Below, in pieces: positions 9,710 through 26,252 of a DNA stretch of 26,252 nt; position 1 is the first letter of the stretch; each line of letters begins with the position of its first letter. Made by a program: the position numbers and the translations under genes. Origin of the DNA: a virus; the IMG/VR virus record IMGVR_UViG_3300033148_002527, positions 1-26,252 of that record; one strand, written 5' to 3'. The notes under the pieces are model-generated. The model was not told the origin of the DNA. It worked only from the letters and a program-made list of their open reading frames with translations, and did no database searches.

Positions 9710-10189
9710 ATGAAACGATTCATTTCTATTCTGATCCTGTTGGTGGCCCTCCTGCTGCCTGCCCACGCTTTCGGGTGGGTGATGGACTTCGTGCAAGAGG
9801 ACTCGCTGTCCATCGACACCTTCCACGTGTCGGACGACGATGATGTCGACACTTCAAAGACGCTGTCCTTTGCCGATATTGGCCTCAATGATCTGCATTT
9901 CCAGGTCTGTATGTACTCCGACTCAATCGAGTGCGTCGTCTGGTTCCAGCAGAATATCTGGCCTGACACCACCTGGGAGGCCTACCACTGGGAGACGGTT
10001 GACTCGATTATCTTCACCGGATTGTCTGCCGTGACTTGCTCGCTCTGGACTCCGGTTTGTGACGTTCCCCCGGAAGAGTGCCGATTACTCGTTGTTGGAC
10101 GCGCAAACAACAAAATCAGCACTGGCGGCGCTTACGGGGGTACTGCGGCGATTATCAGTTACTTCCGGGAAGAGCGGGACGCCGACTGA
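9710..10189 (+). CDS. Exported protein inside the head operon
   Basis: A 159-residue protein with a clear Sec signal peptide: basic MKR, hydrophobic core (about 4-16) and an AHA cleavage site after residue 20. The mature part is rich in aromatic and acidic residues with several cysteines (C-rich near 110-135), so a disulfide-stabilised beta domain is likely. GGAGG 8 nt before ATG 9710 is the best ribosome site in the neighbourhood. The stop overlaps the next connector gene (TGATG). An upstream in-frame start at 9599 lies inside the capsid gene and was rejected. I do not recognise the family. Candidates are a head fibre, a superinfection-exclusion protein or an inserted accessory gene. Confidence 0.75.
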   Translation: MKRFISILILLVALLLPAHAFGWVMDFVQEDSLSIDTFHVSDDDDVDTSKTLSFADIGLNDLHFQVCMYSDSIECVVWFQQNIWPDTTWEAYHWETVDSIIFTGLSAVTCSLWTPVCDVPPEECRLLVVGRANNKISTGGAYGGTAAIISYFREERDAD

Positions 10190-10662
10190 TGTCGACCTTC
10201 TGGTGCACAGTCGCCGACGTCGAGGACGTGCTGACGTTCCTGCAAGGCGCGAGTCAGACATCCGGGCAGATTCAATCCCGGATTGTCTCGGCCCGTGACT
10301 ACATCATTCAGGAACTCGGCTCGTTCTTCTCGACGACCGAACTCGACACTTGGACCGACGAGAATTCCGTACCTCCGCAAGTGCGGCGGCTTGCCACAAT
10401 GGAGGCCGCCGCCCGCTTTCTGCAGGAATGCGTAGACGGTGAGTCGATCGGTGACCGGGCCTGTAAATCCTACGGGTTTCGGCGCGAAGTCGACACGACC
10501 ATCAAGCGCATCCGGGAAGGCGAGCTTGTCATTACGGAATCCCGTACCGACTCGACTCCGGTCTCGGCTCAGGATGAATCGTTTCGCGTTTCGACTCACG
10601 GCACCGATCCGGTGGGTGAGGACGACATGATGAAACGATTCTCCGGGGAGACTCAGACGTGA
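10189..10662 (+). CDS. Head-tail connector/adaptor (gp6/Mu gp36-like)
   Basis: A 157-residue protein whose first 90 residues look like the helical bundle of DUF1320/HK97 gp6-type connectors (VADVEDVLTFL ... IQSRIVSARDYIIQEL ... VRRLATMEAAARFLQE). These form a ring below the portal. The C-terminal part (about 105-157) is polar and probably flexible. ATG 10189 overlaps the upstream stop (TGATG), and the frame is also open earlier, within the exported-protein gene. The next gene starts at an overlapping GTG. Position between capsid and tail terminator supports the call. Confidence 0.7.
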   Translation: MSTFWCTVADVEDVLTFLQGASQTSGQIQSRIVSARDYIIQELGSFFSTTELDTWTDENSVPPQVRRLATMEAAARFLQECVDGESIGDRACKSYGFRREVDTTIKRIREGELVITESRTDSTPVSAQDESFRVSTHGTDPVGEDDMMKRFSGETQT

Positions 10663-11162
10663 AGGGGCAACTGTACCGCCAGCATCGGCGCACGGTCAAG
10701 GATGTCTATGACAATGCGACGAGTGGTCGCCTGGAGCGTCAATTGGAGACGATTCAGGTTAAAATCCAAGGCCATTGCCGGGAACATCACAGATGGCAGA
10801 TCCGCACCGGGGCGCTACAGGAGTCAATCGGCTATGAAAAGCCGGTCCGGACGCCTGAAGGTGTGACTGGTGTGGTCTATGCCGGCGGGCCGTCGCGGGT
10901 CAAATACTCCTATGATTACGCTCGGCGCAAGTCTTCGGGCAAGCGCCGCCGAATGTCACGACTGGTTGACGGCAGACGTACCCGCGTTCGTCGCGGCGGT
11001 CTGGTTTGGGTGAACTATGCTCAACACGTCGAGAACAAGGGCTATCCGGTGCTGAAGCAGGGCATACGGCACTATAAGCGTCAGATAACCCGGATGTTTC
11101 GTGACGCCTGTAAGATTCGGCGTCTTGGGCCTCGTGGGGGCAAGGGAGCGAGGATTATATGA
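10659..11162 (+). CDS. Head-tail/tail-completion protein, HK97 gp10-like
   Basis: A 167-residue, strongly basic protein starting at GTG 10659, with GGGGAG 8 nt upstream. The middle has TGALQESIGYE and the later VWVNYAQHVENKGYPVL, which match the pattern of HK97 gp10-like neck proteins (substrate TGxLxxSI and the YAxxxExG loop). These join the connector to the tail. The C-terminus is exceptionally Arg/Gly-rich (RRLGPRGGKG), possibly contacting DNA in the neck channel. It overlaps both neighbours by 4 nt. Confidence 0.7.
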   Translation: MKGQLYRQHRRTVKDVYDNATSGRLERQLETIQVKIQGHCREHHRWQIRTGALQESIGYEKPVRTPEGVTGVVYAGGPSRVKYSYDYARRKSSGKRRRMSRLVDGRRTRVRRGGLVWVNYAQHVENKGYPVLKQGIRHYKRQITRMFRDACKIRRLGPRGGKGARII

Positions 11163-11590
11163 TTGACGGGTATGCCATCATGCAATCCTTCAAGGAGCTG
11201 CTTGACGCCGACGCGACGCTCAACACTGCGCTGGGTTCAAGGCCGGGCAACAGCAAGATATTGCTCGGTGGTACTTTGCCGAGCGACTGTAGTCTGCCCT
11301 TGATTTTAATTCACGATCCGATCTATCGACCGGAAGCCCGTCGGAACGACGGCGAGTTCGATCAAGAGGTCACCATCTGGAACGGCATTCGCTCGGACGG
11401 GATGGAGGACTTTGAGAACATCTACTCGCTGACGCGCCAGGTCGTCGACTTGCTTTCCGGTGGTCGCATCAAGACAACGACAACCGTACTCTCCAGCCTT
11501 CGCCTTGTTGAGGCTGAGTCCACCACCATTGTTGGGAGGTCTTCGGTTAAAGTCCTGCACTTCATGGGGCTTGCCGGAGACGTGAGTTAA
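11159..11590 (+). CDS. Tail terminator protein
   Basis: A 143-residue protein in the slot between the HK97 gp10-like gene and the tail tube, where the DUF3168/gpU type tail terminator normally sits. An N-terminal helix (YAIMQSFKELLDAD), strands with LPLILIHDP, and a later helix near the end (VVDLLSGG) fit that family. It caps the tail tube and fixes the tail-head joint. ATG 11159 overlaps the upstream stop, with GAGG (11150-11153) 5 nt before it. Homology is inferred by context and fold pattern. Confidence 0.6.
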   Translation: MIDGYAIMQSFKELLDADATLNTALGSRPGNSKILLGGTLPSDCSLPLILIHDPIYRPEARRNDGEFDQEVTIWNGIRSDGMEDFENIYSLTRQVVDLLSGGRIKTTTTVLSSLRLVEAESTTIVGRSSVKVLHFMGLAGDVS

Positions 11591-11606
11591 TAAGGAGATA
11601 CGCCAA

Positions 11607-12095
11607 ATGGCAACTGACAATACGAAACTTTACTCGGGCCTCATTACTAGCCTGTCGATCGGTGGTGCTGACATCGGCCACACCGGAGGCAAGGCAGTGC
11701 TGGCGATGGAATCCGAGACCGTGGAACTGCGAACCGGGCAGAGCCATTCAAAGGTTGCAACCCTTCTCCGTGCGAGATCGGCGACCCTTTCGATTGACCT
11801 GCTTGAGTTCAGCGTCCAGAATTTGGCCTATGCGCTCGGCCAGCCGTCGACTTCGGTTGTCGGCACGACCTACCTGAATATATCAGACTCGGCACCGGAC
11901 AGCGTCGAGGTTATTCTGGTGGTCGAGAACGAGCGGTCGGGCCGGACCGATACCTGGAAATTACCTGACTGCAAGTTGCAGGGTTCAAGCGCGATCACCT
12001 ACGACGCTGAGAGTCAGGGTAGCTTGCCGATCGTGTTCGATGTGTTTCCCGACTCGTCTAATTCGCTGGGCTTCCTGGTGCAGGCAGATACCTAA
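11607..12095 (+). CDS. Major tail tube protein
   Basis: A 162-residue beta-rich protein preceded by AAGGAG 9 nt from ATG. The beginning (ATDNTKLYSGLITSLSIGGADIGHTGGKAVL) and alternating strands with VELRTGQ and VEVILVVENER fit siphoviral tail tube proteins, which stack as hexameric rings round the tape measure. It lies directly after the tail terminator, as expected. The next gene is a glycosyltransferase rather than the expected chaperone, so the tail module is interrupted here. Confidence 0.75.
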   Translation: MATDNTKLYSGLITSLSIGGADIGHTGGKAVLAMESETVELRTGQSHSKVATLLRARSATLSIDLLEFSVQNLAYALGQPSTSVVGTTYLNISDSAPDSVEVILVVENERSGRTDTWKLPDCKLQGSSAITYDAESQGSLPIVFDVFPDSSNSLGFLVQADT

Positions 12096-12097
12096 TC

Positions 12098-13105
12098 GTG
12101 GTATTCCTGCACGAAATAAGAGGATTAAGTGCTCGGACCGGGTACGGTGGCGCGTTCCAGGCATTGTACTATGCGCTCATGAAGCTGTATCCGGGTCGTG
12201 TTATCTCTCATCCTTTCTTTCGTCTGACGGGCAAGCCCGAAATCGACTGCGATGTCTTTTTCGGGCAGCCCTATAATCGGTTCCTCGACGATTTCGAGCG
12301 GCGCCACTGTGAGCACAAGGGCATCTTCACGATGTACGAGTCAGAGCGGATTCATCCTGAGTTCATCTATCATATCGAGAAGTACTTTGACTTTATCATC
12401 GTGCCGACGCGCTGGTGTCAGAAGGTGTTCGAGCAAACCTTTCCCGATCATCCGGTCTATCTCTGTCCGCTCGGTGTCAATCCCGACATCTACCCGATGT
12501 TGCATCGACCGCTTGACCGGCATCCCTTCACGTTTCTCTGGCAGGGATTCGTTGTCAACGACCGCAAGCGCGCGGATCTGGTACTACGGGCATTCAAGGA
12601 GCTTGACCTGCCGAATAGCCGGTTGATTGTCAAGTACCTGCCGGACATCAGCAAGAGCAAGATCAAGCACATTCTCTCAGACTCAAAGATCACCATGATC
12701 GGCGAGCAATTCAGTTTCCCGGAAATGCTGAGTCTCTGGCAAGAATGCGACTTCGGTGTCTTTCCGTCTGAGGGCGAAGGCGTCGGCCTGATTCCACTTG
12801 AGTGCATGACAACGGGTATGCCGGTAGCGATTGCCAACAACACCGGGGCGGCTGACTACTGTGACAATCGTTACAACTTCCCGCTTGAGTGCAAGGAAAC
12901 GGCTGACTCCTATTTTCAGGACGGCAGTCGGTTTGCGGTTCCGACGCTGGAGGCAATCAAGACGGCGATGTCAAAGGCTTACCACGAAAGGGCTGCGGTT
13001 CAGCGTCGCGGCAAGGCTGCGGGTAGCTGGATTCGGGCCAACCATACAAACCGCCATTCGGCGCAGAAGTTCATGGCAGTAATCGACGAGGTGATGGGGT
13101 CATGA
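12098..13105 (+). CDS. GT4-type glycosyltransferase (GT-B fold)
   Basis: A 335-residue enzyme. The N-terminal half has the GYGGAF-type acceptor/donor loop (near residue 15). The C-terminal half carries the GT4 hallmark E227-x7-E235 in EGEGVGLIPLE, followed by a glycine-rich substrate loop (ANNTGAADY). A glycine-poor LWQGF segment near 145 begins the second Rossmann domain. It transfers a sugar from a nucleotide or lipid donor with retention of configuration; donor and acceptor are unknown. Start GTG 12098 is 2 nt after the tail-tube stop with no good ribosome site, so it relies on coupling. An alternative GTG at 12129 is out of frame. It is co-transcribed with tail genes, which suggests virion protein glycosylation. 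Confidence 0.85.
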   Translation: MVFLHEIRGLSARTGYGGAFQALYYALMKLYPGRVISHPFFRLTGKPEIDCDVFFGQPYNRFLDDFERRHCEHKGIFTMYESERIHPEFIYHIEKYFDFIIVPTRWCQKVFEQTFPDHPVYLCPLGVNPDIYPMLHRPLDRHPFTFLWQGFVVNDRKRADLVLRAFKELDLPNSRLIVKYLPDISKSKIKHILSDSKITMIGEQFSFPEMLSLWQECDFGVFPSEGEGVGLIPLECMTTGMPVAIANNTGAADYCDNRYNFPLECKETADSYFQDGSRFAVPTLEAIKTAMSKAYHERAAVQRRGKAAGSWIRANHTNRHSAQKFMAVIDEVMGS

Positions 13106-13869
13106 CGGCAGTTGCAACAGTGATACCGGTTTACAACGGCTATCGTGGCCAGGAAGAACCGACGTGGCTCAGGGCGGCGCTGATGTCTGCCGTTAATACC
13201 GATTTCCAGGGCATCCATGAAATCATCGTCGTCAACGACGGCTCGACCGACAAGACTGGTCTCTGGCTTGACGATCATGTGGCCATGCTACCGGATCGCA
13301 GCAACGTCTTTATCAAATGGGCGACGCATGAAAAGAACCTGGGCGCGGCTGCTGCGTTCAATCGCGGTGTCGAGATTGCCGGCGAAGATAGTTATATCGC
13401 CCTGCTCGGCTCCGATGACCTCAGTCACCCCGACCGGATAGAGAAGCAAGCCGCATTCCTCGACGAACACCCCGACATTCCGATGGTCGGCTGCTACTAC
13501 GATACCATCGACGCCGACGGTAATCTGATTGAGACCGCCGACACCATGCCGACCGACCCGGCTGATATTCGCCGCTGGCTCTATGCCCGACGTTGTGACA
13601 TCGGCGTTCCGATGTTCCGGTACTCACTCTGGCAGGAACTCGGCGGCTTTGACTCCAAGAACTTCCCGACCAGAGCATCAGACTACGATTTCTATCTACG
13701 GACGGTTGAGCGGTACGACATCGGGCTCATACCCGAAGTGCTGTACTTCGTGCGGCTTGGCGTGCCGCGACTGTCCGACGACAAGCATGAGCACATGGAA
13801 TCGGCCTATCGCGCCGTGACTCTCTCAAGAGACAGAAGACGACAAACCAGGAGGACTAAAGACAAATGA
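13102..13869 (+). CDS. GT2-type glycosyltransferase (GT-A fold)
   Basis: A 255-residue enzyme with all the usual family-2 landmarks: the N-terminal strand and loop ATVIPVYNG (5-13), EIIVVNDGSTD (40-50), NLGAAAAFNRG (79-89), the DxD-like pair D105-D106 in LLGSDDLSHPDR that binds metal and nucleotide sugar, and a GGFD motif later. It inverts configuration using a UDP- or GDP-sugar. The tail after residue 235 is basic. ATGA overlap with the GT4 gene makes the two a coupled pair. Both are inserted between tail tube and chaperone with no promoter of their own. Confidence 0.88.
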   Translation: MTAVATVIPVYNGYRGQEEPTWLRAALMSAVNTDFQGIHEIIVVNDGSTDKTGLWLDDHVAMLPDRSNVFIKWATHEKNLGAAAAFNRGVEIAGEDSYIALLGSDDLSHPDRIEKQAAFLDEHPDIPMVGCYYDTIDADGNLIETADTMPTDPADIRRWLYARRCDIGVPMFRYSLWQELGGFDSKNFPTRASDYDFYLRTVERYDIGLIPEVLYFVRLGVPRLSDDKHEHMESAYRAVTLSRDRRRQTRRTKDK

Positions 13870-14360
13870 CAGACGAACTCAAAATTTTAGGTGAACAGCC
13901 GCGACTTGTGCGGCTCGCCGACAAGGTGCAATTGCATCTCTACCCGCCGACCCTGGCGCGGTTGCAGGAGGTCATTGAGGCGGCCCTGAAAATCCCGGAC
14001 GCATTCAAGGCGCTGGAAGATAAAGACATTCGGGCCAAGATCGACGACGGCGATGACAATGCGCTGGCGAAGATGCTTGCCGACCTCATAACCGATGTCG
14101 GGGCAAAGGCGTTCCCGGTGCTGCGGATAATGTGCGCAGATCGCGCAGGCGAAGTCAACCCGGAACTCAAGGAAGACAACTTCTGGCTTGAGCAGGTCAC
14201 CACATCGGCAATCACTGAACTGGTGACGGTCTGGATCGGACTGACCCGGATCGACGAAATGTTAAAAAACGTGGGCAGGCTCACGGGGATGATGGCGCCA
14301 AGCCGTTCACGTGGGCCGGTTTCGTTGCCGTCATCGCCAAGACGTTCGGTTGGGAGCTGA
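13866..14360 (+). CDS. Tail assembly chaperone, short form (gpG-like)
   Basis: A 164-residue protein directly upstream of the tape measure gene, where lambda-type chaperone G lies. The first 135 codons form a helical domain; the last 29 residues in this frame are Ser/Arg/Pro-rich and look like an out-of-frame tail. GGAGG at 13850-13854 is 11 nt before the ATG, which also overlaps the upstream stop. Most ribosomes would end here; some shift at 14264-14270 to make a longer product. Chaperones of this kind coat the tape measure during tail assembly and are not in the virion. Confidence 0.8.
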   Translation: MTDELKILGEQPRLVRLADKVQLHLYPPTLARLQEVIEAALKIPDAFKALEDKDIRAKIDDGDDNALAKMLADLITDVGAKAFPVLRIMCADRAGEVNPELKEDNFWLEQVTTSAITELVTVWIGLTRIDEMLKNVGRLTGMMAPSRSRGPVSLPSSPRRSVGS

Positions 14361-14506: not shown

Positions 14507-17305
14507 ATGTCTTCACGCGGCCACATAGTCGATTATCTGCGATACAAGCTCGGCCTCGACGACACCGATTTCAACGCCGGAGCAGTGCGGACTGAGAAGC
14601 GAATCGGTGGGCTGACCGGCAAATTCAGCAAGCTAACGAAGGTCATCGGTGCTGGTGCGGCCGCTCTCGGACTCTGGAAACTTACCGATTTTATCAAAGA
14701 CGCGACCCTGACGGCTGCTCGGACGGAAGCGCTCGGCACCATTGTTCAGCAGGTCGGTCAGGCTGCGGGATACTCAGCCGGGTACATCGAGGACGTTACC
14801 GAGAAAATCAAGGCGATGGGTATCACCACCCAGGTCGCCCGGACATCCATTGTCCGATTCATTCAGTCTGAGCTTGATCTTGGCCTGGCTGCGAAACTGG
14901 CGCGAACGGCTCAGGACTTGGCCTCCATTTCCGGCCAGAATTCATCACAGGCACTTGAAACCTTCATACAAGCGATTGCGGCCATGCGGCCGCGACTCCT
15001 GAAGCAATTCGGCATCGTTGAAGACCTGAACGTGCTCTACGCGAGAACAGCAAAGGAGTTGGGCAAGGTCTCGACTCAACTTACCGAGCACGAAAAGAAG
15101 ATGTCCCTGATTAACCGCATCTTCGAACAGGGCCGCAAGGTCGCCGGATCGTATGAGGCGGCAATGGGCGACGTCGGCAAGCAGTTGACGTCACTGCCCC
15201 GATATTTTGAGGAATTGCAGAATGCGATCGGTAAGAACTTCCTGCCGGTGTTGGGTGAAGGCGTTTCGATTCTGACCAAATCACTCAAGTCGTGGCGCGA
15301 ACTGCTGACCGATGACTTCACTCTCATGTCGGAGAAGATCGTCAAGAGCGAAGTCAAGATGCTCGCGCTCAAGGACAAGCTACCGGGCCTCGTGGCTGAG
15401 TTTGAAGCACTGCGCGACAAGACAGGACGGACGGCAGAAGAGACGGTCAAGCTGTATGAGATTCAGGACAAGATCGACACGTTGGCGCCGGGACTGATTG
15501 AGGATATAAACGCCGAAGGTATCGCCTACGCTCTGACCGGCGAGTCACTCAAGGACTACATCGACGAATTGGAGGTACTGAACGAATGGCGCAAGGTCGC
15601 GCAGCAGTTCGACCGAAGTGCACAATTCGCGGCACTTCGGGATGAACTCACGTATCTCAATGAGCTTAAAGACATTCTTACCGGCTGGGAGGGGCACTCG
15701 CCGCTTCTCGAAGAGGCTACGCAGGGTACGGCCCACCCGCTCTTCACCTATGAGCAGCTAATCGACCGGATCAAGGAGATTGGCCGGGAAATGGCCACGC
15801 TGACCAAAGAAATGGAGGAGGACGGCGAGGTCGCAAAAAGCACATTCAAAGCCGGCTCTGACGGCGCGAAGGAAATGTCTGACAAGCTCAAGGAGTTGAT
15901 GCACGACGCCAAGCTGAAGATCGTTCCCGACATCGAATTCCCCGGCATCGACAACCTCGACGATATGCTGGACGATCTGGACACTCAGTTTGCCACCGGA
16001 TTTATCGACGAGGACACGTTTAGGCAATCCCTCAAGGCAATTGAGGATCTGCTTTGTGACTTCGGCTTCAGGTACACAAAGGAATGGCTGAAGATTCACC
16101 GCCGTCTTGTCTCAATCACCGATGAGACGACCACATTCATCAAGCAGGATTGGGAAGAGGTCGCCGATGACATCACCGAATTCCTCGGCGGTATTGAATG
16201 GTCAACCCTCGACGATATGCCCGACAAGTGGGGCGACGCTGCGGACTCGGCTCGGAACTACGGGTATATCCTCTCTGGCCTTCTAGCCAACTCGAATGAG
16301 CAGGCGGCACAGTTGGTTGACACTTTAGCCAATGCCTTTGCCGGATTCGCTGAAGGCGGCCCGCTCGGATTCGTCTCCGGTTTCGCCTCAGTCTTTCAGG
16401 GCATCATCGACGTGCTGACCAGCTCCAATCGGGAACTTGTCGCGTCACAATATGATCTGCGAATGTCAATCGTTGACTGGATCGACGCGGTTCAGGCAAT
16501 GACGGTCAAGGAGCAGACGGCGGCTCAGCAGTTGTTGGAGGATTGGGTTGCTGAAGGACCGGAAGGCATCGGCGGAATGTCGTCAACAGCCTATGAGCAC
16601 CTACTGCCGATCTGGACTGAAATGCTGGCGCAAGTCGGTATCGCTGTGCCGGACGGCATAGCCCAAGCCGATTTCTGGAAGTGGCTGAATGACACCTTGC
16701 AGGGACTTGACATCACGGTCGCCGATCTGGGCGCAGCTTTCAGCGCCTCCAACATGGCCGAATTCAGCAACGTCTTAGTCGACACCGCGAATCTGACTTA
16801 CCAGCAAGGCGTGAAGCTGATCGAGTATTGGGCGGAAATCTTCGATCTGACCTATGAGCAACAACTTGAACTCTACGGCATTCTCGGTGACGCGCTTGAA
16901 TCAAGTGGAAACATCACTTGGGATGAGCGAATGGACATCGGGACCAAAATGGACCGCTTGATCGAACTCGCCGAAGAGGAAAAGGCTGCCGGCGGCAACG
17001 AGCAAACGCAAATTTCCCGGTCAATCGCCAAGATTACCGAGCGCCAGGCCGACAGCCTGGTCGCGCTACTCCAGACGATAGATTTCAACATTCGTGACAT
17101 CGGTCAACAGATTGTGGATAAGCTGTCGGAATTCCTGAACACTGGCGGCGGTCTGGCTGCCCCGGCACTGGCTGGCGGCGGAACTTCGGTCACCTTCACC
17201 GGGGACTTCCATTTCAACAATCAGAGCGCGAAAGAGGCGGCGGCTGGTCTCGTTTACGAGGTCAACAACCAGATTCGGGCTCAAGGTAGAGTGTACGTGC
17301 AATGA
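14507..17305 (+). CDS. Tail tape measure protein
   Basis: A 932-residue protein, the longest gene in the window, right after the frameshifted chaperone. It is mostly helical, with long charged coiled-coil stretches (about 270-500) and a small-residue hydrophobic segment near 40-62 (TKVIGAGAAALGLWKL). It sets tail length; at about 1.5 angstroms per residue it predicts a tail of roughly 140 nm. A glycine-rich patch precedes the C-terminus, which ends in a beta-like segment. ATG 14507 has AAAGG about 10 nt upstream. No peptidase or lysozyme domain was seen. It overlaps the distal tail gene by ATGA. Confidence 0.88.
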   Translation: MSSRGHIVDYLRYKLGLDDTDFNAGAVRTEKRIGGLTGKFSKLTKVIGAGAAALGLWKLTDFIKDATLTAARTEALGTIVQQVGQAAGYSAGYIEDVTEKIKAMGITTQVARTSIVRFIQSELDLGLAAKLARTAQDLASISGQNSSQALETFIQAIAAMRPRLLKQFGIVEDLNVLYARTAKELGKVSTQLTEHEKKMSLINRIFEQGRKVAGSYEAAMGDVGKQLTSLPRYFEELQNAIGKNFLPVLGEGVSILTKSLKSWRELLTDDFTLMSEKIVKSEVKMLALKDKLPGLVAEFEALRDKTGRTAEETVKLYEIQDKIDTLAPGLIEDINAEGIAYALTGESLKDYIDELEVLNEWRKVAQQFDRSAQFAALRDELTYLNELKDILTGWEGHSPLLEEATQGTAHPLFTYEQLIDRIKEIGREMATLTKEMEEDGEVAKSTFKAGSDGAKEMSDKLKELMHDAKLKIVPDIEFPGIDNLDDMLDDLDTQFATGFIDEDTFRQSLKAIEDLLCDFGFRYTKEWLKIHRRLVSITDETTTFIKQDWEEVADDITEFLGGIEWSTLDDMPDKWGDAADSARNYGYILSGLLANSNEQAAQLVDTLANAFAGFAEGGPLGFVSGFASVFQGIIDVLTSSNRELVASQYDLRMSIVDWIDAVQAMTVKEQTAAQQLLEDWVAEGPEGIGGMSSTAYEHLLPIWTEMLAQVGIAVPDGIAQADFWKWLNDTLQGLDITVADLGAAFSASNMAEFSNVLVDTANLTYQQGVKLIEYWAEIFDLTYEQQLELYGILGDALESSGNITWDERMDIGTKMDRLIELAEEEKAAGGNEQTQISRSIAKITERQADSLVALLQTIDFNIRDIGQQIVDKLSEFLNTGGGLAAPALAGGGTSVTFTGDFHFNNQSAKEAAAGLVYEVNNQIRAQGRVYVQ

Positions 17306-18846
17306 GTTATCCGGCAGACATAAAGATCAACGGCGTCGATGTCCTGAATGACTACGGCTACTATGTCACGGCGGTCGACGGCATCGGACCGATTCAGTCG
17401 GTCAAGCGCGACTTTGGCTTCAGCCCGGGCTCGCTGGCCCCGTCACGCCAGCCTGAGACGATTCAGCCGCGCAAGCTGACGATCAAGGGCATTATCAACC
17501 AGAACAGCAACGAGAACTTGGACCACTACATTGAAGCTATCGGCGCTCTAGTCGGCTGGTACAACGACCGCTACCGGGAAGCGACGATCACAATCAATCA
17601 CTTCCAGGCTGACGGCTCTCTGTCGGGTTCTGGTGACGGCATGACCTGTCTTGTTGTCGTCGAGTCGATGGACGTTAAGCCGATCGGTCCGGCCTTCACC
17701 GCATCGGCAGCGCACGTCACCGTGACCTTCCGGGTGATTCAAACTATCAATCACTGCGGGGGTGTCAGCAACGAGGATACCATCAGTCTTGGTGCCGTCT
17801 ATTGGGAAGACACGTCGGCGCTTCACGGGGCGATCAATCTGGTCTCTAAGATTGAGGCAACATCCGGCACGATCTCAAGTCCGAGCATCTACTGTTGCGC
17901 CATCTCGGAAGAGTTCACCGACGTTTTCGGCACGGCAACAGAGACCGGAACACATCCGGTTGAAGAGGGGGCGCTTGGAACTCCGGCCCTGTCGTTCACT
18001 GCTGGCGGCTCCAACACTCTCAAGTTCCCGACCTTTGCCAACCTACCCGTCGCCGGTACGGAAGAGATCACGATATTTATCAAGTTCAAGCGCAACTTCA
18101 CGGTGGGTGACGGCAATTATCACGTCCTGCTGGGCGACTCGAACGGCACGGGCGGCCTCTGGATTGGCGTTATGAACAACGGCACGTCCGACTTGCTGTT
18201 TACCAACGGCACCGAAAACGTCTCAGTTAGCGGCTCAATGGTCCGGGCTGATTTCTGGAACTATCTCGTCTGCCGTCAGTCTGCGAACAAGATCGACATC
18301 ACCCTCAAGACGCTCTTCGGTGGTGAACTCAGCGACGAAACCGCCAGCCCGTCAGCGTTTCCTAGTCCGGGCTCCTATTTCTGGGTCGGCACGGCATCAG
18401 GTGGCTCCTACCGTTCCGCTTGCATCATCGACGAGGTGGCGATCTGGAAACATCCGCTTTCGGATGATGCGGTGACGGCGCTACTGGACCGCGACGACTG
18501 TGTCGACCGCTTTATGATCCGAGACTATTTCACTCAAGACCTCAACAAGCGGCTGACCTTCCTGCTCGACTTCACGAAAGGATTCCAGGCCATCGCCAAC
18601 CGGGGCGCATGGATAGGCAACACCGCCTCCATTTCGACCAACCATCAGTTGATTGTCGACTCGGACCGCCGGACGATCAAAGACCTCAACATGACCGACC
18701 TGGCCCTGACTAACCGGATGTCGACGCTCTATCCGTACCCCGACTACGGTGTGCAGTTCCCGGTTGTCGAGCGATACAACAAATGGCAGGTGACGGCAGC
18801 CGCAATGAAACTGCACACCGCCTATATGCCGCTCAGGAGGTTGTGA
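17302..18846 (+). CDS. Distal tail protein with LamG-like domain
   Basis: A 514-residue protein in the position of the distal tail (Dit) ring. Residues about 1-155 fit the Dit N-terminal region, with strands starting SYPADIKINGVDV and a helix YIEAIGALVGWYNDRY. Residues about 223-397 form a concanavalin/LamG-like jelly roll (LKFPTFANLP ... ITIFIKFKRNF ... GLWIGVMNNG ... ACIIDEVAIWKHPLSDDAV), typical of carbohydrate-binding insertions. The last part returns to a Dit-like beta segment. The domain may bind host surface glycans. The start overlaps the tape measure stop. Confidence 0.75.
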   Translation: MSYPADIKINGVDVLNDYGYYVTAVDGIGPIQSVKRDFGFSPGSLAPSRQPETIQPRKLTIKGIINQNSNENLDHYIEAIGALVGWYNDRYREATITINHFQADGSLSGSGDGMTCLVVVESMDVKPIGPAFTASAAHVTVTFRVIQTINHCGGVSNEDTISLGAVYWEDTSALHGAINLVSKIEATSGTISSPSIYCCAISEEFTDVFGTATETGTHPVEEGALGTPALSFTAGGSNTLKFPTFANLPVAGTEEITIFIKFKRNFTVGDGNYHVLLGDSNGTGGLWIGVMNNGTSDLLFTNGTENVSVSGSMVRADFWNYLVCRQSANKIDITLKTLFGGELSDETASPSAFPSPGSYFWVGTASGGSYRSACIIDEVAIWKHPLSDDAVTALLDRDDCVDRFMIRDYFTQDLNKRLTFLLDFTKGFQAIANRGAWIGNTASISTNHQLIVDSDRRTIKDLNMTDLALTNRMSTLYPYPDYGVQFPVVERYNKWQVTAAAMKLHTAYMPLRRL

Positions 18847-18850
18847 GGCT

Positions 18851-20932
18851 ATGCCTGAGACGACCTTTCATCTCTACGACATCACCAACACCACTCGGCT
18901 GGCGATTCTCGGTAGCGTGGTCACGGCTGAAGAGATTGAGGAACTGCTGGGCGTTCACACTCTGGAACTGACCGTCGACGCCAAGAATGCCCGACGCGAG
19001 CAGCAGGCCGGCAGCTACCCGGAAGACGACCACCTTGACGACATCGCCCTACTGCAAGCTCAGAAGTATATCCGGGTCTACTACGGTCACGACGGGTCGT
19101 ATCGATCGTTCATCATTCGCAAGGTTCAGAAGCTCAAGGGCGAAGATGAATTCCTATTCAGCGTCCACTGTGAGGCGAAGAAATACGCTCTGCTCGATCA
19201 GGTCGTCAACAAGGCGGCTGAATACTCGCAACTGTCGGCGGCTGACTTTCTGACCATCGTTTTCGCCGACGTCAGCGGCTTTTCGGTCGGCACCAATCAA
19301 GTGCCGTCTACCGAACTGCGCGACGTGGTGCTGGCGAAACCTACGATTCAGGAGGCGCTTGCCTACCTGCACAGGACTTGGACGACGCTGTCCGGGTCAA
19401 CCCTCTATCGGTACTATCCGACAGTAACCGAGGCGGGTGTTGTCAACATCATGCGAGAGGACAACATCGGCTCGACAATCGAAATGCCGCAATCGTTCAA
19501 CCATTCGATCAAGCGGATTGCCAAGAGCGACGAGGCTCCAATCAATCGGGTGTACTGCTCCGGTCTCGGCAACGATGTCAAGTACAGCGACAATCAGAAA
19601 ATCCAATCCGCCTCAGCCGGTTCATATCTCTACTATGGCGGCGGCTCTGAAACATATTACCTCTATGACGGCAATCCGGCCAACACCGACCGGGTAGCCT
19701 TTGACTCCTATATATCACTGCTCTTGATGTTTATGGCGACGTGGTCGGGCGCTCCGGTGGGATCATTCACGATCGAGGCGACAGTCACGGTCAAGAACAG
19801 CGTCGGCGCCACTCTTTACACGCGGGTCTTCGATTGCCAGGACATCCTTGCGCCGAACGTCTACTCGCTGGAATGGCTCGACATCTATATCGGCGACCTT
19901 GAGGACGTGCAGCGGATCACTCTTGAGTGTACGAACTACACAGTCAGCGGCGGCGGGGCGATCACCAGCCCCTATGTCCGCAATCTCGGCCACTGGTATG
20001 AACTGGCGCCGAACGACCCCTACGTTGAGGATGCGGCCTCTCAGTCAACCTATGGCATCGTCTCACACTCGGCGCAGAACAACAAGCATCCGAAAGTCAT
20101 TAACGAAATCCGCAACTATAAGCTCGACGGCGGCTCGGCCTATACCCACATTGACGCGAGTCTGTCCGGCACCTACGGTGCTGGGCTTGCGACGATATTT
20201 ACCGCGATCGGCGCCAACACGTTTGCCGAGAACACCAACCCGCTCTATATCATTCACGGCAGCAAGAGTCAGCGAGTAACCAACCTGACGGCAGCCGGTG
20301 TGCACCTATCCTCGAACTGCAACGTCCGGCTAATCGGCGGCGTCTCTTATGTATTCTTGATAAATCTCTATGTGGTTTCCGGTAGCCTCAAGATTGCTAT
20401 TTACGACAACTACACTTACGCCTTCGGCTCCATGATATTTGAAGCCACGACACAAGGCGCCGGCTGGATTCAGCTCGTCAGCGACACCCCATTCGGCCCG
20501 GATGAGACCTGTTTCTGTGACCTCGTCATTACGACTGAAAGCAAGGTCGCTGACTACTATATCGACTCATTCCAGATAGCCCGGTCAACCGAAGAGGTGC
20601 CGTTCTATCTGGAGAACTCAGCCGACGCGCTGCTGGACGAGGCGAACCGGATCCTCTATCGCAATAAGGATCAGCACACATCCTATGAGGTTGACATCAA
20701 CGACTTGGCCCGGATCGGTGTTGATTACCGGGAATTCGGCTTTGACGTCGGTGACACGATTTGGCTGCTGGACTCTGCGGCCAACCTATCCGACACGCTC
20801 CGGGTGTATCGGCGCGAGTCCGACTTGCTCGACCCGAGGCGGACGCGGCTGTTGCTGTCTGATCGGATGACAAACCTGACTGACATAATCTCGCTTATAT
20901 CACAAAACAGAACCTTGAGAGGTATCGCATGA
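18851..20932 (+). CDS. Tail-associated hub protein (Tal/gp27-like)
   Basis: A 693-residue protein following Dit. The N-terminal 350 residues match the general layout of hub proteins such as Tal/gp44-type, which form the trimer closing the tail tip: a beta domain, a helix-strand region near SQLSAADFLTIVFADVSGFSV, and a MREDNIGSTIEMPQSFNHSIKRI segment. Residues about 270-400 and 430-580 look like beta-sandwich or carbohydrate-binding insertions. The C-terminal 100 residues return to the hub (DINDLARIGVDYREFGFDVGDTIWLLD). AGGAGG at 18835-18840 is 10 nt before ATG. No peptidase motif was found. Confidence 0.7.
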   Translation: MPETTFHLYDITNTTRLAILGSVVTAEEIEELLGVHTLELTVDAKNARREQQAGSYPEDDHLDDIALLQAQKYIRVYYGHDGSYRSFIIRKVQKLKGEDEFLFSVHCEAKKYALLDQVVNKAAEYSQLSAADFLTIVFADVSGFSVGTNQVPSTELRDVVLAKPTIQEALAYLHRTWTTLSGSTLYRYYPTVTEAGVVNIMREDNIGSTIEMPQSFNHSIKRIAKSDEAPINRVYCSGLGNDVKYSDNQKIQSASAGSYLYYGGGSETYYLYDGNPANTDRVAFDSYISLLLMFMATWSGAPVGSFTIEATVTVKNSVGATLYTRVFDCQDILAPNVYSLEWLDIYIGDLEDVQRITLECTNYTVSGGGAITSPYVRNLGHWYELAPNDPYVEDAASQSTYGIVSHSAQNNKHPKVINEIRNYKLDGGSAYTHIDASLSGTYGAGLATIFTAIGANTFAENTNPLYIIHGSKSQRVTNLTAAGVHLSSNCNVRLIGGVSYVFLINLYVVSGSLKIAIYDNYTYAFGSMIFEATTQGAGWIQLVSDTPFGPDETCFCDLVITTESKVADYYIDSFQIARSTEEVPFYLENSADALLDEANRILYRNKDQHTSYEVDINDLARIGVDYREFGFDVGDTIWLLDSAANLSDTLRVYRRESDLLDPRRTRLLLSDRMTNLTDIISLISQNRTLRGIA

Positions 20933-21491: not shown

Positions 21492-21606
21492 ACCGGATTA
21501 CGAGGCCAGGATCGCAGTCGGCTTGATACTGCTGGTCCTGTTCGTCTTCGTTTTCGGCTTCACTGAGATTCATAAGGCGGTGCCGCAATGTCTAACCGGA
21601 ATCTGA
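21472..21606 (+). CDS. 44-residue membrane protein (candidate holin)
   Basis: ATG 21472 has GGAGG (21458-21462) 9 nt upstream and runs to TGA at 21604-21606. It overlaps the previous gene by 20 nt and the fibre gene by 19 nt. The product has a short polar N-terminus, one strong hydrophobic helix (residues about 14-30, IAVGLILLVLFVFVFGF) and a short tail. Size and place next to another small membrane protein suit a single-span holin or antiholin, but many phages have unrelated proteins like this. Confidence 0.5.
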   Translation: MDTTNHKPDYEARIAVGLILLVLFVFVFGFTEIHKAVPQCLTGI

Positions 21607-24161
21607 GCCTGATAATCCTACTGCTGTCGCTCCTGTTTGCGGTCAGCATCTCCTATGCCGTCAACGATCCCGACCGGGTGCCGGTGGTGCATGAGTCGGA
21701 CACCTACGGCGACACTGCTCTCTACGCCAACGGCGATACTCTGTATATCGTTATGACCTACGTCACGCCAAGCGGTCACGATACCATCCGCGTAGTCGCT
21801 CCGGTCACAGTCACCGGGCTGGTGACGACTGACGGGATTCACTTCGGACTCGGCACTCCGATAACGATTGACTCGGCACTGGCCGATTCAGTCTATTCCG
21901 CCAAAGGTCGCTTTGCCGGCAATCTCGGCGCAGAAGGTGATTCGTCCTGGCGGCTGATAACCGTCGACACTCTCCGCACCTATGACGGCAACGGAATCTT
22001 TATCGGCGAAGGCACGACGAAGGTTCTTGAGACATTCACGGATTCGATCATCGCGTTTCAGCGTGTCTTTCTCGGCACGGGCTCAGACGACTCCAGTTTC
22101 ATCACAAAGAAGTATGCCGATGATAACTACGCCAGCGCAGAGGCCGCAGACGCCGACTCGATCCGCAACGTCGAGGTCACCGATGCGACCCCCACTGACG
22201 GCTATGTCCTGAAGTATGAAGCCGATTCCAGCCGGATATTGTGGGCTGAAGATGCCACGGGCGGCGGCGGTGCTTCTGACTCTGATTGGCAAGCGATCGA
22301 AGTCGATCATATCAACCCCTACTCCGGTGACCACATCTTTCTCGGCGATTCATCAGACACGGTCATGGCGACGTTTGCCGATTCGATGCTGTTCTGCGTT
22401 ACCTATCTCTTCAAGGGCGCGAATGAGGCCGATTCGATGCTGGCGACGTGGCGGGCTGCCAAGTCTCTGATTGGTGACAGCGTGGCGACTCATTGGGCGG
22501 TCTTCACCGATACGGTCGAGGATTACCGGGAAGCGGTAAACGACACGACCCAAGCGCATTGGGATACCTGGGTACAGACTGACGAAGAGATTCAGGATTT
22601 GATTGGCCTGATGCTGACCGGCAATACTGAAACCGGGATCACCGTCACCTATCAAGACGGTGACGCTACGATTGACTTTGAGGTTGACGTCAAGGTCTCT
22701 GACTCTACGGCGGCACTGGCTGATTCAGCAGATGGCGGGGCAATCAGATCCGAAACTTCCAAGCTGGCCGACTCGACAAGCGGCGGCGCTGCTCGTGCCG
22801 AAGTCTGCGGGGAGGCTGATTCAACTGACGGCGGTGCAATCCGAGCTGAGACAGCAAAGGTCGCGGATTCGGCAATCACAGTCACAGACGCTAAAGTGAC
22901 GGCAGTCGGTGACACTGTCTACCAGCCGCTTGAGGCGACACTGACCGACATCGCAGACGGCACGATCAATGAGAATCTTGTCAATACGGCGAACCCGTGG
23001 GCTGATAATGAGGTTGCCAACGACATCACTATTGACAACGCGACGTTAGCCGACTCTGCCAACGGCGGCGCGATAAGGGCTGAAACGTGCAAGGAGGCTG
23101 ACTCCACAGATGGTGGTGCGATTAGGGCTGAGACAGCAAAAACAGCTGACGATGCTGATACCGCAGGTACAGACATTGCCGCTATGCGAACGGGTATCTA
23201 TGCCTCAATCTATGCTGAAGCCGATCTGTTTGCCTATATAGAGAGTACGGTGGCGGTGATTACTCTCTCTGACTCTGCCGATGGCGGGGCAATACGTTCC
23301 GAGACTTGCAAAGAAGCGGACTCAACGGATGGCGGCGCAACTAGAGCTACGACAGCCGCTACTGCTGACACGACTGATGGCGGCGCAACTCGCGCAGAGA
23401 CATCCAAACTGGCTGACGACGTTGACACTACTGGCACTGATATAGAGGCTGCCCTTAATAAGCGACTTCGGAATGACGACGACGACACCCTCGACGGTTC
23501 CCTGCGGGTCAAGGGGACCCTTAACGTCGATTCAATCGCTGGCGACGACGGTTCTCTGGTCTTAAGCGACGGCGACGGGATCACAATCGGCGCATCGGAG
23601 ATTTCGTTCACTAAGCCCATTGATATTGACACCAGTGCGTTTGACGACAGCATCGTGGTCTGGGCTGATCTCGGTATGTGTACCGGGCCGGTCGCTGCTG
23701 GTAATGATTCGTCCGACACCGATTCCCTGACCGTTAAGGTTGTTCACAACAGCTATGGTAACGCTCTGGCGGTGATCGGGTGCAACTGGGCGACCAATAC
23801 GAATATGCACTTTATCTGGTCGGTGCCGAAACCGGAGAAGGCCGACTCGCTGATTGCCGTCTACGCCAAGATACGCTGTACTCAGAACGCGGCAGCAGAC
23901 GCTTATCTCGCCATGTACCTTTTCGAGAACGAGTGCGACAGCGCGGCCAATAGCTTTGCCTACGCGGGCATCGACTCCGACAGTGGACATACAACGGCAG
24001 AGGACGTGCTCGTCCTGACGGCTGATGAGGCTGACGCCTTCCACGACTTCCACGATAGGGCGGTGATTCATGCAGTCGGTCGTATCATAGAAACCGATAG
24101 CCATGCTGACACTTTGTTCATCAATGAACTGTGGACGGTCTGGCATAGGAGCCGTTACTGA
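21588..24161 (+). CDS. Repeat-rich tail fibre/adhesin with signal peptide
   Basis: An 857-residue acidic protein. Residues 1-24 form a textbook Sec signal peptide (basic NRN, hydrophobic core, SYA cleavage site), most unusual for a tail fibre. The region to about 370 has beta-strand segments with fibre-like phrases such as TDGYVLKYEADSSRILWAED. Residues 378-608 contain eight copies of a 16-residue ADS-x-DGGAIRAET repeat. A TLDGSLRVKGTLNVDSI segment near 630, typical of trimeric adhesin shafts, leads to a C-terminal globular domain. It follows the tail hub and small membrane genes, as fibres do. Roles are receptor binding or a secreted adhesin. It overlaps the downstream peptidase gene by TGATG. 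Confidence 0.75.
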   Translation: MSNRNLSLIILLLSLLFAVSISYAVNDPDRVPVVHESDTYGDTALYANGDTLYIVMTYVTPSGHDTIRVVAPVTVTGLVTTDGIHFGLGTPITIDSALADSVYSAKGRFAGNLGAEGDSSWRLITVDTLRTYDGNGIFIGEGTTKVLETFTDSIIAFQRVFLGTGSDDSSFITKKYADDNYASAEAADADSIRNVEVTDATPTDGYVLKYEADSSRILWAEDATGGGGASDSDWQAIEVDHINPYSGDHIFLGDSSDTVMATFADSMLFCVTYLFKGANEADSMLATWRAAKSLIGDSVATHWAVFTDTVEDYREAVNDTTQAHWDTWVQTDEEIQDLIGLMLTGNTETGITVTYQDGDATIDFEVDVKVSDSTAALADSADGGAIRSETSKLADSTSGGAARAEVCGEADSTDGGAIRAETAKVADSAITVTDAKVTAVGDTVYQPLEATLTDIADGTINENLVNTANPWADNEVANDITIDNATLADSANGGAIRAETCKEADSTDGGAIRAETAKTADDADTAGTDIAAMRTGIYASIYAEADLFAYIESTVAVITLSDSADGGAIRSETCKEADSTDGGATRATTAATADTTDGGATRAETSKLADDVDTTGTDIEAALNKRLRNDDDDTLDGSLRVKGTLNVDSIAGDDGSLVLSDGDGITIGASEISFTKPIDIDTSAFDDSIVVWADLGMCTGPVAAGNDSSDTDSLTVKVVHNSYGNALAVIGCNWATNTNMHFIWSVPKPEKADSLIAVYAKIRCTQNAAADAYLAMYLFENECDSAANSFAYAGIDSDSGHTTAEDVLVLTADEADAFHDFHDRAVIHAVGRIIETDSHADTLFINELWTVWHRSRY
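22719..23411 (+). repeat. 48-bp coding repeats in the fibre gene (8 copies)
   Basis: Copies start at 22719, 22767, 22815, then 23049, 23097, then 23268, 23316 and 23364. Each encodes 16 residues of consensus ADS-T/A-DGGAIRAET-x-K-x. The three clusters are separated by unique sequence that carries shared phrases (TGTDI near each second and third cluster end). Nucleotide copies have drifted, so this is old amplification plus duplication, not recent slippage. The Ser/Thr content makes it a plausible glycosylation or shaft region. Confidence 0.9.
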
Positions 24162-24859
24162 TGCCCGGCAAGCTGATTGACATAGGCCGGGCCGGTGACA
24201 TCATCACCACTGCGCCCAAGTTTCCGCTGAAGCGGCACCTAAAGCCAAAGCAATATCCGCTTATGGTCGCACAGCGTGGAATTCAAGCGTTCCAGTGGCT
24301 CAAGTTCCTGTTCTCCGGGGGGCCGAAATCAGACACTCATGTTCTGACTCTGACATCACCGACTGCGCTGGTGCACTGGACATACCCGCAAGCAAAGGCC
24401 GAGCCTGTCCACATCCTTGAGGGACAGCACATCCGACTGTGGCGTCCGATCCATTATGAACTATGGAAACACAATGAGGCGCTCGATACGTTCTGGCGGT
24501 TCCTCAACAATGCGGTCGGCGATAAAGTTCAGGGCGACTATGACGAATCGGAGTATCTCCGGTTCCTGCTCAGTCTGGCCCTAGAAGAGCCGGTCAAGCT
24601 GGCAATCGGGCCTACTGCAAGCGGATTACTTGGCAAGGCCAGAAAGATGATCGGTCTCGGCGGTGGTCATGTCTGTTCAACTGGAGCGACAGCCGTCAAT
24701 ATCCATCTCAACTTGCATCACCCCGACATCGTGCCGCGCTGGTTCCGCAAGAAGAGCGGCGGCCATTTGTTGGCAGAAGATGTCAGCCCGGCACACTTCG
24801 GGAATTGGCAGCCCCGCGACTTCAAGTTGATTCTGGAGGATAGATGCGTAAAGCTCTAA
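24161..24859 (+). CDS. Permuted papain-fold (NlpC/P60-like) cysteine peptidase candidate
   Basis: A 232-residue protein. The N-terminus has GDII (12-15), an entry strand common in permuted NlpC/P60 proteins. H60 in SDTHVLTL is the likely catalytic histidine, E81 lies after the following strand, and C172 in HVCSTGATAVNI is the likely nucleophile in the C-terminal helix, an H-before-C order that marks the permuted form. YDESEYLRFLLSL (127-139) matches the conserved helix between them. Such enzymes cleave peptidoglycan peptides or lipid amides, so this may be the lysin or a cell-wall-opening enzyme. No signal peptide. TGATG overlap with the fibre gene. Catalytic triad assignment is by pattern. 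Confidence 0.5.
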   Translation: MPGKLIDIGRAGDIITTAPKFPLKRHLKPKQYPLMVAQRGIQAFQWLKFLFSGGPKSDTHVLTLTSPTALVHWTYPQAKAEPVHILEGQHIRLWRPIHYELWKHNEALDTFWRFLNNAVGDKVQGDYDESEYLRFLLSLALEEPVKLAIGPTASGLLGKARKMIGLGGGHVCSTGATAVNIHLNLHHPDIVPRWFRKKSGGHLLAEDVSPAHFGNWQPRDFKLILEDRCVKL

Positions 24860-26252
24860 TCATCCTACTCCTGCTGACCGCTACGGCGTGGGCGGGGACC
24901 ACAACGGTTGTTGTTCCGGCTGAATTGATATGCGATACCGACATTATGATGAACGCGACCGGCACCAACACGGGAGCGGCTACCCTGTCGTATGTCAAGG
25001 GCGTTAGTAATGAATTCCGTTATCCCTTGCTGTGGACTACCGGACTCGACACACTGAAAAACCTGGGAGACGCCGTTGTAACTTCCGCAACCATAAGCCT
25101 GTATGCGTCGTCTGTGGTTCATAGTGGTGAAGTTAATATGTATGAGAACTACAAGCCCGTCACCACGGAAGGGAAGGGGCAGGTATTGCAGGATTCTCTG
25201 CATATCGGTGGCGGTCCAACATGGCGGCGGTTTAACCGCCCCGCGCTTACTGTCGATACGTCTGATTTGCCAGCAAGCTATGAGATCACCACTCTAACGC
25301 CGATCATGGACCAAGGTGCCTGTGGCAGTTGCGGTCCGGCGTCTGCCGTTGATAATGTGCAGATGCAGTATCTTCTCGACGTGTTTGAGGGAGAGCGTTT
25401 CCAGAACAGCGGCGACAGCAGCGGAGCCGATAGGGCGGGGTTGCCGTCTCCGCAGGGAGAGGATGATCTTGATGTCACCGTGACAATCGCTGGCTGGTAT
25501 TCTTTCAAGATCGGTGACGAGTGGGCTAACCGGAGAGATTCCATTGACTGCGTTGTGCAACATTGGGGGTCGGTAATTGGGTCTCTCAAGGTGACTGATG
25601 TGAGGTTCCGGTATCACTGGAAAGATGGTGGGGACGGTTTGGGGACAGAGGAAATCGACACCATCCTAATGAGTTCCGATTCAATAGAAATCTCATCCCT
25701 GTCAAGCGACAACCCGACAACGGTATGGAATAACACGGACAGCTTGCTTCTTGATGATGATTACCGTACCACCTTGATCCGGTGGGTGAACGTACACAAC
25801 TGCATAGACGTTGGCGACACTATTCAGCCGGACAGTCTTATCTTATCATCCGTAGTAATGGACATAAGCGTCTCCAATGTATACTCAACAAATCAGCCTG
25901 CTATAGCCGCCCTGGAGGGATTCAAGCCCTGGATTCCCGCCGATGTCTGCTGGCGGTATTGGGATGACAACAACTCGTATCGCTGGGGTGAGTGGGGCTG
26001 CAACAGGGGCAATTTCCCGGCTCTCTCGTGGGCGCATCCGATGGTCTGTGTTAAGGAAGACAGTACCGGCTGTGACGGTGCCTGGGCGCACGAAATTTTA
26101 GGCTACATGACTCACTACTGGATCACATCGGAGGATAAATTCAAGAGTACTGGCGGGGATACAATGACCTGCCCCAACGACTACATGAGCGCGGAGACGG
26201 ATTCGGTATTACAGTTGAACACATTCTATCTTGTAAGTACTGCATCACGGAA
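24844..26252 (+). CDS. Exported protein with papain-like CGSC motif (partial, runs off end)
   Basis: An open frame of 469 codons from ATG 24844 to the window edge with no stop. GGAGG (24835-24839) lies 4 nt before the ATG. Residues 1-17 are a Sec signal peptide with an AWA cleavage site. Residues about 20-125 resemble a DNRLRE-type beta domain (Asp-rich start, then DAVVTSATISLYAS). Residues 153-168 contain TPIMDQGACGSCGPAS, matching the papain oxyanion Gln (Q157) and nucleophile (C163) region, with Trp after Cys replaced by Gly. A second DNRLRE-like region lies at about 300-350, and AHEILGYMTHYWI near 416 resembles the papain histidine strand. It may be an exported adhesin or peptidase. The C-terminus lies outside the window. 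Confidence 0.55.
   Translation, partial: MRKALIILLLLTATAWAGTTTVVVPAELICDTDIMMNATGTNTGAATLSYVKGVSNEFRYPLLWTTGLDTLKNLGDAVVTSATISLYASSVVHSGEVNMYENYKPVTTEGKGQVLQDSLHIGGGPTWRRFNRPALTVDTSDLPASYEITTLTPIMDQGACGSCGPASAVDNVQMQYLLDVFEGERFQNSGDSSGADRAGLPSPQGEDDLDVTVTIAGWYSFKIGDEWANRRDSIDCVVQHWGSVIGSLKVTDVRFRYHWKDGGDGLGTEEIDTILMSSDSIEISSLSSDNPTTVWNNTDSLLLDDDYRTTLIRWVNVHNCIDVGDTIQPDSLILSSVVMDISVSNVYSTNQPAIAALEGFKPWIPADVCWRYWDDNNSYRWGEWGCNRGNFPALSWAHPMVCVKEDSTGCDGAWAHEILGYMTHYWITSEDKFKSTGGDTMTCPNDYMSAETDSVLQLNTFYLVSTASR

Follow-up and report, generated by a model that had tools for sequence, protein, structure and literature searches.

Assembly of tailed phages is, in the textbook account, a cytoplasmic process, and annotators read phage signal peptides as belonging to lysis, exclusion or moron genes. 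The DNA analyzed here (hereafter the window; positions 1–26,252 of IMG/VR record IMGVR_UViG_3300033148_002527, from an uncultured tailed phage) raises the question why three phage proteins, one encoded next to the capsid gene and two behind the tail genes, should begin like precursors of the Sec pathway.

The proteins starting at 9710, 21588, and 24844 (all on the plus strand) carry N-termini of the Sec/signal peptidase I type, each with a basic n-region, an uncharged hydrophobic core, and within some 17–24 residues, small amino acids at −3 and −1. Signal peptide 1 (MKRFISILILLVALLLPAHA; 9710..9769) is followed by FGW, signal peptide 2 (MSNRNLSLIILLLSLLFAVSISYA; 21588..21659) by VND, and signal peptide 3 (MRKALIILLLLTATAWA; 24844..24894) by GTT. 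The combination of basic start, hydrophobic core, and AxA-type site (AHA, SYA, and AWA) given for all three in a preliminary description of this DNA was confirmed. Signal calls were made with our own rule-based scorer at a cut-off of at least 6.5; the three N-termini scored 8.65, 7.55, and 7.49, respectively, and the reference proteins OmpA and DsbA 7.75 and 7.48. With the same rule, 9 of 2380 shuffled N-termini (0.4%) and 3 of 1517 internal Met windows (0.2%) reached the cut-off. Given a rate of 0.4% per gene, finding three in a set of some 29 genes would have a chance probability of about 2e-4, and chance hydrophobic N-termini were rejected as an explanation. The sole further window gene to score, an ORF of 87 aa at 1301–1564, has a long hydrophobic stretch and looks like a plain membrane segment.

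Shine-Dalgarno-like sites were found upstream of all three starts (TAAGGAGG for 9710, GGAGG for 24844, and a weaker AAGG for 21588). The ATG at 9710 was preferred because a longer, TTG-started form would overlap the capsid gene. Wrong start codons were likewise rejected. A lipobox with Cys at +1, as in T5 Llp, is absent from all three window proteins, and none of 83 signal proteins, those of the window included, has a second membrane segment (KD19 > 1.8) after the cleavage site.

The 21588 gene directly follows the tail genes. These encode two proteins without signal peptides, a LamG-bearing tail protein (17302–18846; PF13385) and a Prophage_tail protein (18851–20932; PF06605), which presumably form a conventionally assembled tail tip (17302..20932, plus strand). 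As judged by homology and repeats, the mature 833-aa product of the 21588 gene (21660..24161, plus strand) is a repeat-rich, fibre-like protein: it contains 16-aa repeats, and its residues ~370–620 share homology with fibres from numerous phages (lowest E, 6e-36). Inside it lies a shared fibre module, QPLEATLTDIADGTINENLVNTANPWADNEV (22923..23045, plus strand), which an alignment shows and for which 31 viral and 13 MAG loci were retrieved. The central module gave no match of note against cultured phages, and a second tip-domain profile did not match the window fibre.

One signal-less gene, encoding a 232-aa protein without Pfam or PHROG match (24161..24859, plus strand; from the ORF list), separates the 21588 and 24844 signal genes and overlaps the start of the latter. 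The predicted exported protein behind it (24895..26250, plus strand) is open at the contig end and carries the papain-type stretch DQGACGSC (within residues 150–178), with matches to Pfam PF00112 (E = 4e-7) and to the cysteine proteinase PDB 6p4e (E = 0.0015). Both the oxyanion Gln and the nucleophile Cys of QGxCGSC are present; Gly stands in place of the papain Trp after the Cys, and the catalytic His and Asn were not identified in the available 469 residues, the ORF running off the contig. Structure prediction for the mature protein was of low confidence. Because of the papain-type stretch, the 24844 product is better described as a secreted protease-like protein, its ORF being open, whereas the earlier designation as a fibre stands for the repeat-rich 21588 product with its module common to phage fibres.

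To see how general the signal is, we used 31 complete fibre-like ORFs from unrelated IMG/VR phages, chosen by the central module of the 21588 protein regardless of their N-termini. A signal peptide was scored in 25 of them, compared with 77 of 440 other genes (Fisher p = 5e-13); the remaining six were borderline or lipoprotein-like. The preliminary description had named homologues starting downstream of the hydrophobic segment as a refutation; instead, the related fibres have signal peptides of their own. Gln occupied position +1 in 6 of 24 fibres (25%, against a downstream background of 3.2%; p = 9e-5) and in 22 of 111 cases among all signal genes. Such a Gln is the signature of the Bacteroidota signal peptidase ‘Q rule’, and because it is enriched, cleavage by signal peptidase is probably real, as far as sequences can indicate. 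The enrichment behind small-x-small sites also bears on the possibility that the segments are uncut membrane tethers, hydrophobic docking segments, or artefacts of wrong starts. Apart from the weak Shine-Dalgarno site of the 21588 gene, which would suit a misplaced start, the evidence points the other way: ribosome-binding-like sites precede all three genes, the n-regions are basic, and the feature is conserved throughout the family despite differing sequences. We therefore consider this possibility very improbable.

The contigs bearing module fibres carry terminase, portal, capsid, and tape-measure genes according to PHROG scans, which were used instead of a PF03354 terminase profile that found no match over the record set. 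The fibres match PHROG tail-fibre and virion-structural families, and their genes occupy the fibre slot behind the tail genes. Signal genes cluster, with 51 adjacent pairs against 20.6 expected (maximum 33 in 2000 shuffles). A lineage baseline attempted with the tail gene of one such phage (L014) returned that gene only. The window fibre resembles these IMG/VR fibres (L005–L041) in its homologous module (LTDIADGTI/NTANPWADNEV), its signal peptide, its large repeat-rich body, and its fibre slot; unlike them, the window combines one fibre with one papain-like protein, split by the signal-less gene. The idea that a prophage had been recruited, or domesticated, for secretion was rejected, since the trait is shared by numerous phages that belong to different lineages and possess terminase, portal, and capsid genes.

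Cultured analogues are provided by the marine Cellulophaga phages phi10:1 (gp091-095) and phi19:1 (gp101-104), both Assiduviridae, in which the relevant genes lie consecutively; they follow the tail module, a position shared by the window's 21588 gene. Signal peptides are found there on fibre and pectate-lyase-like proteins, and on none of the head, tape-measure, and core tail proteins. Eight fibre-module proteins with signal peptides, four in a row in each phage (gp091-094 and gp101-104), are recorded as virion proteins by the RefSeq note ‘experimental MS/MS proteomics’, this note being the whole of the record and particle preparations being liable to include soluble contaminants. The same ~660-aa lyase body as in this set occurs without signal peptide in phi4:1 and phi14:2, where it is MS-verified too. 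Further comparable phages with signal-less fibres are phi38:1, phi12:1, B40-8, 11b, RAP44, P2559Y, and HTVC033P, in addition to phi14:2 and phi4:1. The link to the window is one of architecture and position, without sequence homology: against cultured phages, tblastn with the three window proteins gave chance-level matches only, and none to phi10:1 or phi19:1. The +1 residues also differ, with Bacteroidota Q-rule sites in the Cellulophaga phages as opposed to F, V, and G in the window.

Between Cellulophaga fibres with unrelated bodies, the signal peptide and some 23 mature residues are 88–93% identical and form the best conserved part. This is relevant to the idea that secreted bacterial adhesin or lyase genes were acquired whole, the signal being mere baggage, with most of the quickly folding fibre protein remaining in the cytoplasm for normal assembly. 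The module does occur on bacterial MAG contigs (Omnitrophota, for instance) in proteins that bear signals, and the domains of the cluster mates (beta-helix, NosD, LamG, and malectin) are of kinds that secreted proteins of bacteria typically have. Yet almost all members, although from unrelated phages, have retained the signal, the +1 Gln is maintained, and the N-terminus is conserved even where fibres have been swapped. Since this indicates selection rather than baggage, such an origin without function appears improbable. Oxidative folding as a motive for export is unsupported, because exported proteins cannot be told apart from the rest by their cysteine content.

Alternatively, the proteins might be exported without ever joining a virion, acting in the periplasm or at the surface of the host by blocking or trimming receptors, or by modifying the outer membrane of lysogens. 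Progeny would thereby be spared re-adsorption to debris and other phages would be excluded; T5 Llp acts in this way. Real signal peptides are compatible with this, the papain-like 24844 protein could be such an enzyme, and lipobox-like sites occur in a few module fibres (L010, L011, L030, and L041, as well as L027 by eye). Signal peptides following the Q rule in phage genes of P. gingivalis, whose function is unassigned, have been read likewise as marking possible outer-membrane modifiers (PMC10367356). These phages (proposed Nixviridae) resemble the window phage in being tailed and in encoding several Sec-targeted proteins adapted to the host signal peptidase; their signal genes were not tied to fibres or virions (PMC10367356). 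Lambda Lom, an outer membrane protein with a signal peptide, is encoded between the tail spike and tail fibre genes (PMC12309495); it is a beta-barrel, whereas the window proteins have neither a match to such a family nor a lipobox. Against a purely non-virion role stand the eight such proteins recorded in particles of two phages, the fibre slot with its tail-fibre family matches, the lack of a membrane anchor in the 83 proteins, and the same bodies serving as virion proteins in signal-less phages. We regard it as possible but unlikely, and the earlier suggestion that the products coat the host surface is weakened, given the missing lipobox and second membrane segment.

The signal architecture, its conservation across the family, the clusters of signal genes that follow tail genes, the +1 Gln signature, and the virion record of the analogues are best explained by appendages that leave the cytoplasm through Sec and become attached to virions outside it, probably at lysis (probability roughly 0.6). 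This suggests that some tailed phages export receptor-binding parts from the cytoplasm before the virion is complete. Among the readings offered in the preliminary description, decorations added outside the inner membrane have the strongest support, with signal-bearing architectural analogues recorded by MS/MS in phi10:1 and phi19:1 virions, and the view in that description that export of fibre-like proteins is both real and unexpected finds support. By analogy, the three window proteins would be made as Sec precursors, pass the inner membrane, and be cut by signal peptidase I of the host. No signals occur on head, tail tube, tape measure, and tail-tip core, whose assembly presumably follows the usual cytoplasmic route. 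Once cleaved, the exported proteins would be soluble and acidic; they may gather in the periplasm (with a monoderm host, outside the cell) and join virions when lysis brings both together, the new N-terminus created by signal peptidase serving as the docking end. To this set the 9710 gene could contribute a small appendage, and the 24844 gene a surface-active enzyme. We give even odds to the broader proposal of a widespread group of tailed phages, infecting environmental bacteria, whose virions are not completed in the cytoplasm: receptor-binding fibres, lyases, and small appendages associated with the capsid or tail would be Sec-exported, cut, and docked in this way.

If true, phage assembly would gain an extracytoplasmic step for which the Sec pathway and signal peptidase of the host are needed. 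Were fibres routinely exported, the host-range proteins of many uncultured phages could be recognized by their signal peptides, and the signal peptide itself (e.g. through the Q rule) would hint at the phylum of the host. Cultured Cellulophaga phages offer a means of testing this. A search of one literature library yielded no account that treats signal peptides of fibre modules as a class, and such peptides go unmentioned in the main text of the paper on the Nekkels and Ingeline phages.

The virion role of the 9710 and 24844 products is the weakest part of the proposal, because neither has relatives: Pfam, PHROG, cultured phages, and IMG/VR yielded none for the former, and an IMG/VR search none for the latter or for the tail-tip and terminase proteins. 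The 9710 gene had rightly been placed in the head operon, as the major head protein gene (8683..9696, plus strand; phrog_1005, E = 1e-41) lies directly upstream, with 13 bases between the two. Its predicted mature exported protein of 139 aa (9770..10189, plus strand) is probably all-beta, judging from a single-sequence AlphaFold model with eight strands and low confidence (pLDDT 48); fold searches with this model returned nothing significant. Unlike the window, phi10:1 has no signal gene behind its capsid gene. In two of the IMG/VR phages (L007 and L028), a signal gene also lies right behind the capsid gene, and that of L028 is a stand-alone copy of a tip domain from signal-bearing fibres (E = 2e-9).

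The linear record of 26,252 bases contains a tailed-phage late region with genes encoding terminase (2933-4255), a portal fused with a Mu-F type head protein (4559-6661), a protease (7221-8291), a head scaffold/decoration-like protein (8291-8671), the major head protein (8683-9696), and the tape measure (14507-17305). Downstream follow a tail-region protein carrying LamG (17302-18846) and one of Prophage_tail type (18851-20932). Two further genes lie inside the structural operon at 12098-13869, between the gene at 11607-12095 and the tape-measure region: one encodes a glycosyltransferase (phrog_2170, E = 9e-24), and the other, judged by eye, resembles a family 2 glycosyltransferase.

As proposed in the preliminary description, ORFs begin at 9710, 21588, and 24844. 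Their products, a small head-operon protein, a repeat-rich fibre, and a papain-type protein, start with classical n-h-c signal peptides, ending in AHA, SYA, and AWA. The ORFs are preceded by Shine-Dalgarno-like sequences (TAAGGAGG, AAGG, and GGAGG, respectively; the second is weak). N-termini were scored with a self-written rule (positive n-region, uncharged core, and -3/-1 rule), whose scores are not on the same scale as those of published predictors. Six of six known secreted E. coli proteins passed, and two membrane proteins scored as well (LacY 4.8, FtsH 5.8); scores below ~6 therefore cannot tell signal peptides from membrane anchors. The three window proteins scored 7.5-8.7. Since a score of 6.5 was reached by only 0.4% of N-termini after shuffling and by 0.2% of internal-methionine windows, three signal genes among ~29 are not a chance result (~2e-4, binomial reasoning). 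Near the window start, an 87-aa protein with one membrane segment (1301-1564) was also scored by the rule, though it is more like a plain membrane protein.

Relatives of the fibre were retrieved by its central module, QPLEATLTDIADGTIxENLVNTANPWADNEV, without using the N-terminus. On other viral contigs, 25 of 31 complete module-bearing ORFs scored at least 6, compared with 77 of 440 other genes on those contigs (Fisher p = 5e-13). Four fibres lay just below this cut (L013 5.6, L015 5.5, L025 5.97, L031 5.94); also under 6, that of L008 has a hydrophobic signal-like start lacking a basic residue, and that of L027 has, in our reading, a lipobox-like site further inside. Because the contigs hold terminase, portal, major head, tape measure, and baseplate genes, they represent phages. 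Matches to PHROG tail-fibre or virion-structural families were obtained for several of their fibres. The signal peptide is thus a family trait of module-bearing fibres; homology between the window and the surveyed fibres is limited to the module.

Within the module, LTDIADGTIxENLVNTANPWADNEV (~30 residues) is 50-88% identical across unrelated phages and MAG contigs (Omnitrophota, others), far better conserved than its flanks, and may be a mobile segment of fibres. It also occurs on five contigs (L044, L045, L046, L051, L053) from a single MAG (nzgw509), with signal-like, partly lipoprotein-like starts in three of their module ORFs. In the window fibre, imperfect 16-residue repeats (ADSxDGGAxRAETxK; 22734-23400) flank the module on both sides.

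Signal genes occurred in runs of 2-7 behind tail or portal genes, with 51 adjacent pairs versus 20.6 expected (maximum 33 over 2000 shuffles). Cluster mates contained beta-helix, NosD, LamG, and malectin domains. A second membrane segment was absent from all 83 signal proteins, which were strongly acidic (net charge per 100 residues -8 versus -1.5) and should therefore be soluble once cleaved. L008 also encodes, among its structural genes but apart from the fibre run, a 785-aa protein (1190-3547) with a clear signal peptide; it had no PHROG match and no relative among cultured phages.

For the 9710 product, no relatives were found. In L007, however many bases apart, a signal gene (4889-5467) comes directly after the capsid gene (3699-4874); in L028 the same pair lies at 7413-7886 and 6420-7355. 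The L007 product is a paralogue of a signal protein beside the fibre of that contig (E = 2e-9), and the L028 product is a stand-alone copy of a tip domain ending signal-bearing fibres (E = 2e-9); head- and fibre-operon signal genes of these contigs hence appear to form one class, to which the 9710 gene may belong by analogy.

Gln occupied position +1 in 6 of 24 fibre precursors (3.2% downstream, p = 9e-5) and in 22 of all 111 signal genes (again versus 3.2%). This is the 'Q rule' of Bacteroidota signal peptidase I, previously reported for proteins of P. gingivalis phages (PMC10367356), and the predicted cleavage site is probably in use. A hydrophobic docking helix would need no Gln behind a small-x-small site, which disfavours reading these N-termini as such helices. 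At +1 the window proteins have F, V, and G, which leaves room for a host outside the Bacteroidota.

Cultured Cellulophaga phages offer the key analogue. In phi10:1 (host Cellulophaga baltica), the consecutive products gp091, gp092, gp093 (pectate lyase), and gp094 (tail fiber) each have a signal peptide with Gln at +1 and the RefSeq annotation 'experimental MS/MS proteomics analysis'; the likeness to the window is one of analogy, as nothing is homologous. Products gp101-104 of phi19:1 are likewise signal-bearing and MS/MS-annotated, with +1 Gln clear in gp102 and gp103. Two scores fell below 6 (phi10:1 gp092, 5.6; phi19:1 gp104, 5.4). No signal peptides were detected in the tested tail proteins of either phage or in the phi10:1 capsid protein. 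The same arrangement was present in phages of two additional families, namely phi19:3, phi13:2, and phi46:3 (Pachyviridae) and Ingeline_1 (Duneviridae), and in Nekkels_1. The trait was absent from phi38:1, phi12:1, phi14:2, phi4:1, B40-8, 11b, RAP44, P2559Y, and HTVC033P, and is therefore optional even within Bacteroidota phages. The gp093 body (~660 residues) recurs at 44-50% identity, without signal peptide, in phi4:1 and phi14:2, where it is a virion protein too. Among gp094 relatives, the signal peptide and ~23 mature residues are 88-93% identical where the bodies differ; the simplest reading is a swappable head, i.e. an export signal followed by a putative docking segment starting at the cleavage site.

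Signal-bearing fibres are thus a recurrent variant of phage fibre biology, undescribed in the literature searched. The analysis shows the signals, their recurrence and clustering, the +1 signature, and the recorded virion presence of the analogues. In the inferred scheme, signal peptides would be cleaved, and the exported proteins would be stored in the periplasm and join virions at lysis, docking through the mature N-terminus. The window phage may follow the same scheme. Of the preliminary description, the signal peptides are confirmed, and the interpretation offered for the export of fibre-like proteins is supported in part. The main rival explanation is that some signal proteins act in the host envelope instead of virions, a role that would suit the few members resembling lipoproteins as well as the papain-like product. 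The latter (24844-26250, open at the contig end) has a split C1 motif: a QGxCGSC stretch at residues ~150-178, with Gly in place of Trp after Cys, is separated by ~200 residues from another, weakly papain-like stretch near 395-439.
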